From Nocardioides pini (GTDB lineage: Bacteria; Actinomycetota; Actinomycetes; Propionibacteriales; Nocardioidaceae): a DNA stretch of 64,000 nt. The notes under the pieces are model-generated. The model was given only the letters and a program-made list of their open reading frames with translations. It had not been told where the DNA came from and did not search any database. Position numbers and translations under genes: made by a program. Shown here piece after piece: positions 19,789 through 25,420 of the stretch. The stretch lies in NCBI RefSeq assembly GCF_026712185.1, contig NZ_JAPPUX010000004.1, positions 620,001 through 684,000 of the forward strand, in the 5' to 3' direction. Every line of letters starts with the position of its first letter. Positions within the stretch are counted from its first letter, which is position 1.

Positions 19789-19906
19789 GGGAGGAGTTTG
19801 GCAGAGCCGGACCACGCGGACCGAGGCGGATGCCCGAGGCTGTGGACACGCCCGAGGAGGCGGGTCGCGTGCGAACACCCGGGCACCTGCGGTGGAGCTC
19901 GCGCTC

Positions 19907-19936
19907 TTGACTCGTGTCGCTTGATCATGAGATAAT
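19907..19936 (+). promoter_or_regulatory. Sigma-70-like promoter of the HNH nuclease gene
   Basis: TTGACT at 19907-19912 and GATAAT at 19931-19936 are separated by 18 bases, a good vegetative promoter by eye. The -10 element overlaps the first base of the LexA box. Confidence 0.65.
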
Positions 19937-19951
19937 CGAACACATGTTCGA
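19936..19951. promoter_or_regulatory. LexA (SOS) box
   Basis: TCGAACACATGTTCGA is a perfect inverted repeat and an exact match to the actinobacterial LexA consensus TCGAAC-N4-GTTCGA. It lies directly on the -10 element and 16 bases before the start codon, an ideal repressor position. Confidence 0.85.
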
Positions 19952-19967
19952 TCAATGAGGAGGACGG

Positions 19968-21308
19968 ATGGCAGGCCGAGCGGAGGGTAACGTGTGGGAG
20001 CCCGACGACCTGCACGCGCTTGCCGACCTCGTTGCCGTCCTCGCGCCCGCCACGACGGGAACCGACCTGCTCGACCAGCTCGAGGCCCTCGAACGGATCA
20101 AGTCCGCGGCCGCTGCCGCGCAGGCCGTCATCTCGGCCACCTTCGCTGACGCCGCCGACAGCGAGGACCTGCCGGCGTCCGGCCGGCGCACGCCGCCGCG
20201 GGCGATGTCGATCGGCGCCGAGGTCGCGCTCGCGACGCTGGCCAGTCCGTACGCCGGTGAGCAGCGGGTGCTGCTCTCTCGCCGACTGCGCGACCACCTC
20301 CCACTGACGCTGGCCGCGCTCGCTCGCGGCGAGCTCACCGAGGAGCGAGCCTTCGCGGTGGCCCGCGAGGTCGCCCACCTGACACCCGAGCAGCGCAGGC
20401 GCGTCGACGAAGACGTGGCGCCCCGGTTGACCGGTCTCGGTGACGCCCGGCTCCGCGCCGCCGTGCGCCGCTCGTGCCTGACCCACGCCGCCGAGTCCGA
20501 GACCCGACGCTGTCGGCGCGCCCGTGCCGATCGCCGGGTCACCTCGCGTCGTCTCGACGACGGCACCGGCCAGCTCATCGCCACCCTTCCCATCGAGGTC
20601 CTTGCCGCCGTCCGCTCAGCCCTCGACACCGCCGCCACCACCGCCCGGGCCGCGGGCGACGAGCGCACGTCCGGGCAGGTCCGCGCCGACACCCTCGCCG
20701 CCCGGGTCACCGGCAACCAGAGCGTCACCGACGCCGTGCCGGTGCGGGTCAACCTGGTCATCGGGGTCGAGTCCCTCCTCGGCACGGGCACCGAGCCCGG
20801 CTTCGTCCAAGGCGAGGGCTTCCTGCCCGCAGCCCTGTGCACGGCGTGGGTGCGCCGCGCCAGCGACTCGGCGAAGACCACCCTGCGCCGGCTCTTCGCC
20901 AGCCCCGACGACCGCGCGCTCGTCGCGATGGAGTCCACCAACCGCCGCTTCGACGGCCAGCTCGCCGAGCTGATCGACCTCCGAGACGCCGGGACCTGCC
21001 GCACCCCAGGCTGCAACGCCCCCATCCGCCACCACGACCACGTGACCGGGGTGGACGACGGCGGACCGACTGCCACAAGCAACGGCCAGGGGCTGTGCGA
21101 GCGCTGCAACTACGTGAAGGAATCGCCCGGGTGGGCCTCCTGGGTCGCCGAGCCCGGCGACACCAGGCTCCACGAGGTCCACGGCGTCACCGAGCACCTC
21201 CGCATCCTCAGATCCACGGCACCACCACTCCCCGGCGGACCCGCCGGAACCGTCGACTACTCCCCCTACGAGCTCCGGCTTGCCAGCAACTACACCCTGG
21301 CGTCGTAG
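19968..21308 (+). CDS. DUF222/HNH endonuclease domain protein (13E12-like), SOS-controlled
   Basis: A 446-residue protein with an alpha-helical DUF222 region (about 20-300) and a C-terminal HNH domain. The latter starts at CRTPGCNAP and continues through HHDHV to GLCERCNYVKE, so the metal-site histidines and the zinc-binding cysteines are intact. GAGGAGGA precedes the ATG at 19968. Related proteins form the large 13E12 family of actinobacteria, several of which carry LexA boxes; this one has a perfect box on its promoter. The target DNA and role (repair, mobile-element or defence nuclease) are unknown. Confidence 0.88.
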   Translation: MAGRAEGNVWEPDDLHALADLVAVLAPATTGTDLLDQLEALERIKSAAAAAQAVISATFADAADSEDLPASGRRTPPRAMSIGAEVALATLASPYAGEQRVLLSRRLRDHLPLTLAALARGELTEERAFAVAREVAHLTPEQRRRVDEDVAPRLTGLGDARLRAAVRRSCLTHAAESETRRCRRARADRRVTSRRLDDGTGQLIATLPIEVLAAVRSALDTAATTARAAGDERTSGQVRADTLAARVTGNQSVTDAVPVRVNLVIGVESLLGTGTEPGFVQGEGFLPAALCTAWVRRASDSAKTTLRRLFASPDDRALVAMESTNRRFDGQLAELIDLRDAGTCRTPGCNAPIRHHDHVTGVDDGGPTATSNGQGLCERCNYVKESPGWASWVAEPGDTRLHEVHGVTEHLRILRSTAPPLPGGPAGTVDYSPYELRLASNYTLAS

Positions 21309-21385
21309 TCCCGGGCTTTCGCGGCACTGTTCATTCGGTTCGGATCATCCTGCCCGGAGGCACCGGAGGTCACCGGTCGCTCCCA

Positions 21386-21420
21386 CGCGGCAGATCCGTG
21401 CGCTCATCGCGACAGATCCG
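21386..21420. repeat. Two tandem copies of the CGCGGCAGATCCG repeat
   Basis: CGCGGCAGATCCG at 21386-21398 is followed at 21408-21420 by CGCGACAGATCCG (one mismatch). The motif recurs exactly at 21964 and 25337. The copies fall between genes of the accessory region. Confidence 0.6.
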
Positions 21421-21421
21421 G

Positions 21422-21873
21422 TCATTCGCCGGGAACGGCAGCGTCCAGCACGCGCTGGATGAGCGACGTCGTGGAGATCGTGGAGGTACGTGCGACGTGC
21501 ACGAAACGTCCATCGGCGACGGCGGGGCCGTAGACAGCCGACGCTGCCTCGAGTGACAGGTCATCGCCATGCACCACCGTCGAGATCGCGTGTTCCTCCA
21601 AGAACTCCGCTGTCACTCGGTCCGGGGAGTCGGCGATCACCTCGTCGACGTACCTGCACGCCTCGATGACCGCGACGCGCTCCGCGAGCGTCATGATCGG
21701 ACGCCGTTTGTACGAGGCAACCGTCTCGTCGGACAAGACGCCGACCACCAGCCAGTCGCCATGACTGCGAGCCTCTCGAAGGAACGCGACGTGGCCAGGT
21801 GGAACAGGTCTCCGACCATGTCGACGTAGACCCTCGACGAGGGTCGCGCTTCAGCGCCGGGGTCATCTGTCAT
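21422..21873 (-). pseudogene. Frameshifted cytidylyltransferase-family (nucleotidyl transferase) gene
   Basis: The reading starts at 21873 (MTDDPGAEARPSSRVYVDMVGDLFHL) and continues in a second frame as LVVGVLSDETVASYKRRPIMTLAERVAVI to VHGDDL and the terminal STTSLIQRVL. Together these make one glycerol-3-phosphate/ethanolamine-phosphate cytidylyltransferase-like protein. Adding one G in the CTGGCCAC at about 21793-21796 restores LGHVAFLREARSHGDW, joining both halves. The break lies inside the catalytic HxGH motif (FHLGH), so the gene is inactive unless the base is a sequencing error. No intact partner gene of a lipid or wall pathway is adjacent. Confidence 0.8.
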
Positions 21874-21943
21874 CGGCGCATCCTGGTTCGTCGGGGAGCA
21901 CGGCTACTTTCAGTTCGTCGAGACGGTACCCGCGCGCACATCG

Positions 21944-21978
21944 GCATGAGCGGACGCACGGGTCGCGGCAGATCCGGG
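21944..21978. repeat. Copy A of a ~33-bp dispersed repeat
   Basis: The sequence runs from GCATGAGCGGACGCACG to CGCGGCAGATCCGGG. It matches 25319-25351 with one substitution and a 2-base gap. The 12-bp start ATGAGCGGACGC recurs at 23658-23669, on the other side of the IS110 gene. Confidence 0.7.
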
Positions 21979-22031
21979 CGAGCCTGGCCGCCCTCAACGC
22001 GGCATAGAAACACGTTCTGAGCGCTGGCTCT

Positions 22032-22098
22032 GGACGGAGGAACGTCCCCCTGCTGCGCTTGTCGGGCTTGGTGTCCCATCGCAGACAGGAGGACGTTC
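22032..22098 (+). ncRNA. Structured leader of the IS110 transposase, possible bridge-RNA region
   Basis: The leader can fold in two exclusive ways. One is a local hairpin GGACG/CGTCC (22032-22036 with 22043-22047). The other is a longer-range 8-bp stem, GAACGTCC at 22040-22047 with GGACGTTC at 22091-22098, which would bury the region just before the ATG. Group IS110 elements are known to make a guide (bridge) RNA from the end preceding the transposase. Assigning that role here is inference; no expression or loop-to-target match was tested. Confidence 0.35.
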
Positions 22099-23448
22099 AT
22101 GACCAACGGTAATGGCGTGAGCCGGGGTGATCGGAACCGGAATGCTCGGCTCGCTCGGCTCCGTGAGCTGGTGCCGGTGAGCAACGCGATCGTCGGGATC
22201 GACCTGGCCGATCGCAAGCAGATGGTCGTGGTGTGCGACCACGACTCCAAGGTGCTGGCCCGCAAGACATTCCGGTGCCGGGCCTGGGATCTCGGTGTCG
22301 CGTTGGACTGGGCAGCGCAGCGTGCTGCAGCCAGCGGCTTTGCTGGAGCGACGGTGGCGTGCGAGCCGACCGGTCACCGGTGGCGAGTGCTCGGGCAGCT
22401 CGCCGCGGACCGTGACATGTCGTTCGTTTGTGTGCAGCCGATCCAGACGTCCTGGGCTCGGCGCAGCGAGGACCTGACCTTCGACAAGACCGACGACAAG
22501 GACGCCATCCTGATCGCCAGGCTCACCGCCCAGCTCCGCTGCTACGACCCCGAACCAGTCGATGAGACGGGCCGGCTCCGTCATCTTGGTGCCCGGCGGG
22601 AACGGCTGATCGTCGACGCGGGCGCTCAGGTCCGCCAGATCCGCGACCTGCTCGAGTGCGTGTGGCCGGCGGCGCTGGAGACCGCGAACTACCCGTTCCG
22701 GTCCAAGACCTGGCCGGCTGCGCTGTGGGTGATCTTGGACCGTGACGGCGGCGACCTGGCCCGCACCCGACGCCTCGGCCTGGCCCGGTTCGAGAGCGCC
22801 GCGCGCCGCGAGGTCCTCAAGCGTGGCGGGCAGAGGCCGTGCCTGCGGATCGTCCGCAAGCTCTACACCGCGCTGGCCGACCCGACCGGCGTCACAGCGC
22901 ACCGACGCGGCGCGTTGGAGCGGGTGCAGCTGCTGCTGGAGGACTGGGCCGAGACCCAGCGCAAGCTCGCCGACACCGAAACCCGGATGACCACGGTCCT
23001 CGACGAGCTCGGCCTCACCGAACTCGCCACCAGCATCCATGGGCTGTCGCCGGTGGGTGCTGCGGCGATCCTCGCCGAGACCGGTGACCCGACCCGGTTC
23101 GCCACCGCCCGGGCGTTGGTCAAGCACGCCGGTCTGGCCCCGCGGGAGAAGAAGTCCGGCACCTTCACCGGCAAGAGCAAGCTCACCGGCCAGGGCCGGC
23201 CAAAGCTCCGGTTGGCGGCCTGGCGCGCGGTCTGGGGAGCGTTGCAGACCAACACCGTCTACGCCGCCCGCTACCGACACCTCACCACCCGCGAGACCAA
23301 CAAGCTCACCGCCACCCAAGCCCAAAGCGTCATCGCCGCGGCGATCCTGCGGCACCTGCACGCGGTGATCACCACCGGCCAAGCCTGGGACCCGGTCATC
23401 GCCGCTCACGGCACCCGGCGCAGGGAGGCGGTCACGATCGCGGCCTGA
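22099..23448 (+). CDS. IS110-family transposase (DEDD recombinase)
   Basis: A 449-residue protein. The N-terminal RuvC-like DEDD domain has acidic residues in IVGIDLADRKQMV (about 32-44), ACEPTGHRW (about 96-104) and FDKTDDKDAILIARL (about 130-145). The C-terminal Tnp_20 domain contains HGLSPVGAAAILAETGD and the TGKSKLTGQGRPKLR region thought to hold the catalytic serine. The frame is intact. CAGGAGGA precedes the ATG at 22099. IS110 enzymes insert by a serine-assisted, RNA-guided mechanism without classical inverted repeats. Confidence 0.93.
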   Translation: MTNGNGVSRGDRNRNARLARLRELVPVSNAIVGIDLADRKQMVVVCDHDSKVLARKTFRCRAWDLGVALDWAAQRAAASGFAGATVACEPTGHRWRVLGQLAADRDMSFVCVQPIQTSWARRSEDLTFDKTDDKDAILIARLTAQLRCYDPEPVDETGRLRHLGARRERLIVDAGAQVRQIRDLLECVWPAALETANYPFRSKTWPAALWVILDRDGGDLARTRRLGLARFESAARREVLKRGGQRPCLRIVRKLYTALADPTGVTAHRRGALERVQLLLEDWAETQRKLADTETRMTTVLDELGLTELATSIHGLSPVGAAAILAETGDPTRFATARALVKHAGLAPREKKSGTFTGKSKLTGQGRPKLRLAAWRAVWGALQTNTVYAARYRHLTTRETNKLTATQAQSVIAAAILRHLHAVITTGQAWDPVIAAHGTRRREAVTIAA

Positions 23449-23820
23449 TCAGTAGGCGGGGCATCAAGTTGACGGTCGGGGCAAGCCCTACGCGGCATTG
23501 AGGACCACGAGTACCTCGTCGCTCATCGCGGGCAGCCCCGTCCGTCGTCTCCTCAACCCGATTACACGCTGCCGGGCACAGCCCGATTCACCGCTATGCA
23601 GGGACAGACGACGGACGCGGCACCGAACAGATGCTTGACGCAAACCGCCTTACGCTGATGAGCGGACGCTTTGGAGAAGCCGTCCTCCGTCTTCTATCGA
23701 GGTCGCTGCTTGCTCTGCGCTGTCAGACCGCGGACGGGCCGCCGGGCCGTCCCGGGGAGGGCTACGGCCCGGCTGCTACCTCACCCGCTGCGGGGCACAC
23801 GAGACGCGCCTATCGCTGGG
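23449..23820. other. Non-coding region after the IS110 transposase
   Basis: There are 372 bases with no supported gene. It holds the putative right end of the element (ACGCGGCAT, 23490-23498), a 12-bp inverted repeat with a 55-nt loop (23539-23617), and a copy of ATGAGCGGACGC at 23658-23669. Short reading frames here have no recognisable content. Confidence 0.5.
23539..23617. repeat. 12-bp perfect inverted repeat with a 55-nt structured loop
   Basis: CGTCCGTCGTCT (23539-23550) pairs with AGACGACGGACG (23606-23617). The loop contains two copies of CCCGATT and a small GCTG/CAGC hairpin. It is not followed by a gene in a way that suggests a simple terminator. Its role is unknown. Confidence 0.5.
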
Positions 23821-25096
23821 TCAGATGCGCTTCTCGCATCCCCGAATCGTCTCGCCCTGGCACACGTCGCGCCCCTTTTGACCCCGCACGCTGTCGTTGC
23901 CAGGGCCGCCGATGAGGCGGTCATCGCCGTAGTTCCCGGTGATGTAGTCGTTGCCAGGGCCGCCGTCGATCGTGGCCTCGTAGTCGGAGCACCGAGGCGG
24001 GGTCAAAGAGTCTGCGAGATAACTCTTGAGCTTGTAGTCAACGTAGAGTCCGTCCCCGCCCTTCATTCCCTTGAGCGTCGTCCGGCACGCGGCGACCCTG
24101 ATGAAGTCCGTGCGGTCGGTGCCGATGACGACGGCACGCTTCGCGGCCACGGCGAGGCCATTGAAGTCGCTGACGCGGATCGAGTCCGTGACGCCCGCCT
24201 TGGTGGCCGTCACCCGGGAACGGCTCAGGTCGGCGCGCACCCGGTCGTGGCTCTTGAGGTCGAGCAGCAGTGTGTTGCGCCCGATGTCGCCCTTGATCCG
24301 CGTCGCCTTTCCGCCCAGGCTGTTCGACTCGTAAAGGTCGTTGCCGCTGCCGAGCGCGATGTCGCGGTCATACGTCCTCGGCGTTGACCTTGATGTGTTC
24401 AATGCGGTCGGTTCCGCGGAACGTGAACCGTCCGTACTTGGCCGACGTAGTGAAACCGAGCCGGGCGAACCGGCCCGTCCAGGTGAGTTTCGTGTCGCCC
24501 CCCGTCACCGTGCCGCTGGCGTCCATGGTGACGTCGCCGTTGGCGGATCGAACGCTCAAGAGGCCGGTGCCGATGCTGTAGCCGACCGCAGACACCGCGC
24601 CCGGGGCGGTTTGGATGCCGCTCCACCTGACGTCGCCGCTGTCGCCGAGGTCGATGATGTCGGCGTTCGGCTGGCCAGGCATGCCGGAGATGACGAGGCC
24701 GGCGGTCCAGCTGAGGCGGATGACGTCAGCCTCGGTGTCGGTGCCGTCGACGGTGCCCGCGTGGATCGTGGATCCGCTGCGCTCGGAGGGGATGAACGTG
24801 TCGGCCCCCGCGCCGAGGATGACGACGACGAAAGTGGAGGTGCCGGTGACGGAGTCGTAGCTGCTGCGCTCGCCGGTCGCGCACACGAGGTCATCGCCGC
24901 CGAGCGCGTCGACTCGCGTCGCATCGTTCGTGACGATGACGTCCGCGTCCTCCGTTCCGGTGATCTGACCCCCGGGCGTCCCGACGATGGTTGCCGCCTG
25001 CCCCTGACATGTCTCGCCCGCTGCGGCGGCCGTGCCCACTGGCGCGAGCAGAGCAGCGCCCAGCAACGCGACGGCGCTCAGACTGATCGTCCCCAT
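23821..25096 (-). pseudogene. Frameshifted secreted RTX-like (calcium-binding repeat) protein
   Basis: The first part (25096 to about 24368) has a signal peptide (MGTISLSAVALLGAALLAPVGTAAAA) and a beta-rich region with GGDDLVCATG. It stops just after IEHIKVNAEDV at a TGA. The same protein continues in another frame as YDRDIALGSGNDLYES and ends with GGPGND- and GDDRLIGGPGND-type nonapeptide repeats that bind calcium in RTX proteins. The break lies near 24368-24378. Read through, it would be about 420 residues. AGGGGAATC precedes the ATG at 25096. It is either a decayed gene or a sequencing error. Confidence 0.7.
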
Positions 25097-25420
25097 GATT
25101 CCCCTGATCGTTGACGAACCCGTATGACTACGCAACGGATCGAAAGGTTGTCACGACCCGCTGACGGAGACTGGGCCGCCCCGGGGGATGGGTCGACCCG
25201 CCCGACGAACACAAAGTCAGCCAGACTCAGTGAAGGCCCTGACGTCGTGAAACGCGGTTGCCGTAGGGGAGGTGGTGTGCACGCCTCACAGTCGGCAATG
25301 CGAAGGTGCGCCGACCAAGCATGAGCGGATGCACGTCGCGGCAGATCCGGGTGTCTCGGTCCACCTCATTCGTGCAGCTCGTCATCCTCACCGAGAGCGG
25401 GCCGACTCCGACGCGGCGGT
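25097..25420. other. Intergenic region upstream of the RTX-like gene
   Basis: About 320 bases between the RTX-like gene start and the end of the hydrolase gene. It contains repeat copy B (25319-25351) and no supported gene. Confidence 0.5.
25319..25351. repeat. Copy B of the ~33-bp dispersed repeat
   Basis: It runs from GCATGAGCGGATGCACG to CGCGGCAGATCCGGG. It is nearly identical to copy A at 21944-21978, 3.4 kb away. Together with the copies at 21386 it frames the degraded accessory segment. Confidence 0.7.

Follow-up and report, generated by a model that had tools for sequence, protein, structure and literature searches.

A probable SOS-regulated HNH endonuclease gene of the DUF222/13E12-type superfamily in Nocardioides pini

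The stretch of Nocardioides pini DNA analysed here (the window, 64,000 nucleotides in all) contains, between rpiB and an esterase gene (estA), an HNH nuclease gene preceded by an apparent LexA box, which raises the question of whether the gene belongs to the SOS response and, if so, what function a nuclease produced upon DNA damage would serve. Repeat families of 13E12-type HNH genes are abundant in mycobacteria and nocardioides, and such genes are found among those induced by damage. Those of M. tuberculosis are under LexA control and are induced by mitomycin in a RecA-dependent manner (PMC4181829, PMC8151990; Davis 2002 and Smollett 2012 cited therein), the RecA-dependent set in cells exposed to mitomycin C comprising imuA', imuB, dnaE2, alkB, five putative HNH endonucleases and lexA (PMC8151990). 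The original prediction for this locus stated that the role of the family is undefined, which is right for the molecular function but not for regulation, given the published LexA control and mitomycin induction. LexA-controlled HNH genes are thus already known from M. tuberculosis, to which the window gene would add a Nocardioides case. By its sequence, the window gene is quite probably an SOS-regulated HNH endonuclease of the DUF222/13E12-type superfamily, an assignment that covers the regulated nuclease and not its role. The features of the gene and its upstream region are as follows.

19907–19912, plus strand: -35 sequence TTGACT (sequence and promoter scan; two other species have TTGAC conserved at the corresponding position between rpiB and the orthologous HNH gene)
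19915–19936, plus strand: imperfect PafBC-type element TGTCGC-N10-GATAAT, with two mismatches and with the spacing to the box that is commonest among relatives
19931–19936, plus strand: -10 sequence GATAAT, its final base in common with the LexA box (sequence and promoter scan)
19936–19951, plus strand: LexA (SOS) box TCGAACACATGTTCGA (pattern search, genome-wide search and conservation in homologues)
19944–19958, plus strand: ATG within the LexA box, opening a four-codon frame, MFDQ-stop (sequence)
19957–19963, plus strand: ribosome-binding sequence GAGGAGG (sequence)
19968–21308, plus strand: HNH nuclease gene, 446 aa, of a divergent DUF222/13E12-HNH branch (ORF, profile searches and homologue alignment)
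20106–20495, plus strand: helical N-terminal domain, codons 47–176, predicted by AlphaFold2 with a fold like the ParB/Noc/Spo0J/KorB DNA-binding domain
20997–21134, plus strand: HNH nuclease domain, codons 344–389, of zinc type (C344/C349 and C377/C380), with D357-H358, N372, N381 and K384

The box upstream of the HNH gene is the one perfect LexA box in the window, and both of its half-sites agree without mismatch with the SOS consensus of mycobacteria, TCGAAC-N4-GTTCGA (PMC4181829), as had been predicted. The original prediction also placed the box on the -10 of a good promoter, which is borne out by an overlap of one base, the first T of the box being the last base of GATAAT, and by a scan of 19850–21480 in which TTGACT-N18-GATAAT was the sole sigma-70-like promoter (shuffled sequences averaged 0.0). 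Judged from the genome sequence, the box is not a chance match, because the perfect pattern occurs at five sites in the 4.53-Mb genome and the reversed control pattern at none (approximately 0.1 sites are expected from base composition by our own estimate), and because its companions are mostly SOS-type genes. Three of the other four perfect boxes stand before imuA' (NCBIfam NF058630, E 4e-43), a gene for an AlkB-type 2OG-Fe(II) oxygenase, and a DUF6504 gene, after which comes a SAV_6107 HEPN gene; the fourth adjoins an unnamed small ORF of 138 aa. The ORFs beside two of the five boxes (the DUF6504 gene and the 138-aa ORF) occupy 1094–1435 of L015 and 1072–1488 of L013. LexA itself is encoded by the host genome (E 8e-27), with a near-consensus box, TCGAACAGGTGTTTGA, approximately 40 bp upstream of the lexA start. 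Several more LexA-like boxes with one or two mismatches lie approximately 1 kb upstream of lexA (L223), and resemble the box cluster near M. tuberculosis lexA.

A scan of homologues for the box, proposed together with the original prediction, was run on two samples, and most members of both retain it; the absence from close homologues that the prediction had named as refuting is not what is seen. The genus sample consisted of 126 homologues whose upstream DNA could be used, almost all of them belonging to the same genus (the named matches are Nocardioides): the box is perfect in 57 and has one mismatch in 29 (86/126 at one mismatch or fewer, compared to an average of 0.12 sequences for eight permuted palindromes), and 30 have three or more mismatches, that is, no recognisable box. 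Among 60 homologues from other genera (Mycobacterium/Mycolicibacterium, Rhodococcus, Sinomonas, Arthrobacter and others), the box is perfect in 16 and has a single mismatch in 26 (42/60), and no control reached one mismatch or fewer. Of PF02720 loci taken from across the phylum, 14/29 have a box with at most one mismatch. Most of the homologous proteins compared have only about 40% sequence identity. A comparison of the orthologous rpiB locus in three species shows no change in TTGAC or in most of the box, against a diverged spacer between the two; in L053, an ortholog at the rpiB locus, the box is degenerate. The LexA box thus appears to be a hallmark of this HNH family across genera of actinobacteria. 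With a host lexA that has a box of its own, mostly SOS-type genes at the boxed loci of the genome and a box kept in most homologues, the predicted SOS control of the window gene, through LexA, is strongly supported by sequence and conservation. In the undamaged cell, LexA bound at 19936–19951, over the -10 and the transcription start, would keep the gene off; upon DNA damage, RecA filaments would trigger self-cleavage of LexA and the nuclease would be expressed. In 47 of the 86 boxed homologues, the ATG or GTG at the box position that corresponds to 19944 reads in frame and without interruption into the gene, which fits the common MFD/MFE beginnings of the proteins.

The same promoters frequently contain a second damage-related element, the mycobacterial PafBC motif TGTCGG-10N-TA-3N-T (PMC8151990), which was searched for as TGTCRG-N10-TANNNT. 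The perfect motif is present in 36/130 boxed promoters of the family, all seven boxed DUF222 paralogues of the same genome among them (five scrambled controls gave one in total), and in 15/60 promoters from other genera. When promoters are aligned on the box, TGTCR is exactly at -21 in 21/96 and at any other single position in at most one; the TANNNT of the motif ends on the LexA box, and the two motifs overlap at a fixed spacing. From these alignments, a PafBC motif built into the LexA-boxed promoter is a candidate second damage input within the HNH family. The perfect motif is absent from the promoter of the window gene, and since its element has two mismatches to TGTCRG-N10-TANNNT, control of this gene by PafBC is not claimed. 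Genes with both a LexA box and a RecA-NDp/PafBC motif are a described class (PMC8223512), and in the limited literature consulted no published report of the pair in HNH genes was found. Mycobacterial dual SOS/PafBC promoters such as that of recA likewise combine both motifs in one upstream region, but the overlap at fixed spacing distinguishes the HNH family from the dual class in general, as the lack of a perfect PafBC motif distinguishes the window gene. With a damage switch that is kept across genera while the flanking DNA changes, and that often has a PafBC element built in, the HNH genes would belong firmly to the damage response, and the questions of their targets and of who profits from the cutting become testable.

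The protein that this switch would control is encoded by an uninterrupted ORF of 446 aa (19968–21308) that begins with the ATG at 19968 after GAGGAGG. The HNH site had been predicted to be intact, and it is: D357, H358, C344, C349, C377, C380 and K384 are invariant across 75 aligned homologues, and the HNH residues overall are invariant or nearly so, with a match to Pfam PF01844 (HNH) of 19.5 bits, slightly under the 21.4 cut-off. The predicted label DUF222 applies through homologues, 59 of the 75 aligned family members matching PF02720 (69 match HNH), but not to the window protein itself, which has no match to PF02720 even at E=10 and is not among the matches in a PF02720 search of its own genome. 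Because it can be aligned over most of its length with many relatives (36–49% identity) and 59/75 of those aligned match PF02720, the protein is placed by sequence in a divergent branch of the DUF222/13E12-HNH superfamily, not as a direct Pfam match; full-length relatives approximately 40% identical to it match both PF02720 and HNH, whereas the window protein lacks the former match. A gene 79% identical to the window gene is present in N. pinisoli, a cultured relative. The M. tuberculosis REP13E12/13E12 HNH genes share with the window family the LexA box of TCGAAC-N4-GTTCGA type and the presence of multiple copies, but the window protein is of a divergent Nocardioides branch, related via the superfamily rather than by direct sequence comparison, and its gene has a TTGAC-type -35 and an imperfect PafBC element.

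The ratio dN/dS is approximately 0.22–0.26, which indicates functional constraint. It bears, with the state of the neighbouring DNA, on the possibility of a fossil gene, in which an old repeat copy would have retained its box by descent without any present role. Degraded DNA on the right, where an IS110-type element lies near a cytidylyltransferase fragment whose frame appears to be shifted, would be in keeping with a fossil, but the open frame, the invariant catalytic residues, a dN/dS of approximately 0.26 among close family members and the conservation of the box against a diverging spacer make this reading very improbable. The original prediction set the gene at the border of a degraded segment, which is correct for the right side, where a 4.1-kb stretch contains a cytidylyltransferase remnant, an IS110-type transposase and an RTX-repeat ORF, but not for the left side, where rpiB is intact. 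It also linked the gene to mobile DNA. The degraded segment is no basis for that link, because it lies beside the gene and is missing next to the orthologous HNH gene of other species; dispersed repeats and presence/absence between rpiB and estA, however, are suggestive of such a role for the family. In many species rpiB and the esterase gene are nearly adjacent (approximately 40 bp), and in several others the HNH gene stands between them; the gap is approximately 5.6 kb in the window (19790–25420), so that the locus is variable. The cytidylyltransferase-like gene (21422–21866, minus strand) is apparently frameshifted; a close relative of it adjoins the HNH gene in L019 and L020, from two other species, for three different arrangements overall. 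The IS110-family transposase ORF between the HNH and esterase genes (22099–23448, 449 aa) appears to be intact.

The AlphaFold2 model of the protein has a mean pLDDT of 85, and of 93.6 for the N-terminal domain alone. The best ten structure matches of this domain are all to Noc, Spo0J or ParB, with Z from 7.3 to 5.2 and therefore under 8 throughout, a range that can reflect a common helical arrangement; the top rows align approximately 100 residues with an rmsd mostly near 3 (3.0 over 102 residues). As Z is under 8 and the E-values of Foldseek do not reach significance (0.08 and 0.9 at best), the likeness is suggestive only, and a DNA-binding domain of ParB/Noc type is treated as a reasoned lead, which would be the first handle on target recognition. 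The C-terminal part of the model resembles the HNH domains of IscB, EcoKMcrA and GmeHNH. Identity as an IscB was considered for the likeness of the HNH fold and for weak NCBIfam matches in 10 relatives, and was set aside, the common HNH domain being the simplest cause of both. From the predicted fold and the conserved catalytic residues, the protein probably binds specific DNA through the ParB-like domain and uses the zinc-HNH domain to nick or cut it. The putative DNA-binding domain is nearly constant among paralogues, and diversification of specificity is therefore not visible.

A nuclease of this kind might serve to destroy the DNA of infected or irreparable cells, as a damage-triggered suicide or anti-phage enzyme. 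Tight repression by LexA would suit such a harmful enzyme, 13/75 relatives weakly match a PADLOC type II restriction enzyme model, and overexpression of MSMEG_1275, an HNH DNase of M. smegmatis, leads to cell death (PMC9416677). However, of five HNH proteins overexpressed in that study only one killed the cells (PMC9416677), the window protein has no match in the PADLOC defence library, and no conserved antitoxin, immunity or defence partner was found among 326 flanking ORFs, so that a suicide or anti-phage role is improbable. Searches of phage and plasmid collections gave distant matches only (human faecal phage contigs; Rhodococcus, Arthrobacter and Tsukamurella plasmids).

The main alternative for the role is that of a host DNA-repair nuclease that processes damaged or mismatched DNA with ImuA'/ImuB/DnaE2 and the Ruv proteins. 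Its regulon company (imuA', alkB-type) is the same as in M. tuberculosis (PMC8151990), a mismatch-repair role has been proposed for the M. tuberculosis 13E12 genes (PMC4181829), and the family is under purifying selection. Against it, NucS is already the mismatch-repair enzyme of mycobacteria (PMC8151990), the distribution is patchy (83/216 genus genomes have no match at E<=1e-40), and the widely varying copy number and the lack of a constant partner gene are unlike a core repair enzyme; a repair role is, on balance, somewhat doubtful.

Copy number and location are best seen in the same genome, in which 7/11 DUF222 paralogues have a one-mismatch LexA box. Six of the DUF222-HNH genes (L006–L011) are dispersed units of approximately 1.5 kb (in C1, C8, C10 and C12 of the genome) with 86–92% DNA identity. 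Their pairwise alignments all begin within approximately 10 bases of the PafBC motif CTGTCGGTGG and stop just beyond a G+C-rich hairpin downstream of the stop codon, and in each unit a perfect PafBC motif abuts a LexA box with one mismatch, and this box overlaps the start codon. Related genomes have about five to sixteen such units among the matches listed. No neighbour gene is constant among the 326 flanking ORFs, the larger recurrent groups (rpiB/fpg and esterase/LURP genes) all belonging to a single shared locus and the others occurring in at most four loci; the unit is therefore the promoter plus the nuclease. At the locus of L011, three species have only short intergenic DNA, with the flanks 45–132 bp apart, and a fourth has a diverged unit of its own; this empty-site comparison includes extra flanking sequence. 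Target-site duplications were sought at L008 and L011 and none is claimed, the flanks being conserved and the insertions not clean. The pattern of presence and absence fits gain or loss of units.

Because the units are dispersed and are present or absent at particular loci, the preferred role for the window gene, held tentatively and somewhat short of probable, is that of a homing-like or gene-conversion nuclease active only during induced recombination repair, when its activity would help its own unit to be copied and retained. Free-standing HNH homing endonucleases are alike in combining a DNA-binding domain (predicted here) with HNH, in their dispersed copies and in their presence or absence at loci, whereas a target site, self-copying and an invaded gene are known only of the homing enzymes. 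An extension of the homing-like role to DUF222-HNH genes across actinobacteria would describe them as a selfish dispersing unit whose own LexA/PafBC-type damage switch, often fused to the start codon, drives a site-specific nuclease of ParB-like HTH and HNH domains, the breaks being repaired from its own copies; as a whole this is doubtful. Three further DUF222 paralogues of the set (L001, L002 and L003) have a different common upstream element, TCGAACATGCTTGCGA, TCGAACACCCTTGCGA and TAGAACATGCTTGCGA, respectively, which is possibly a variant operator.
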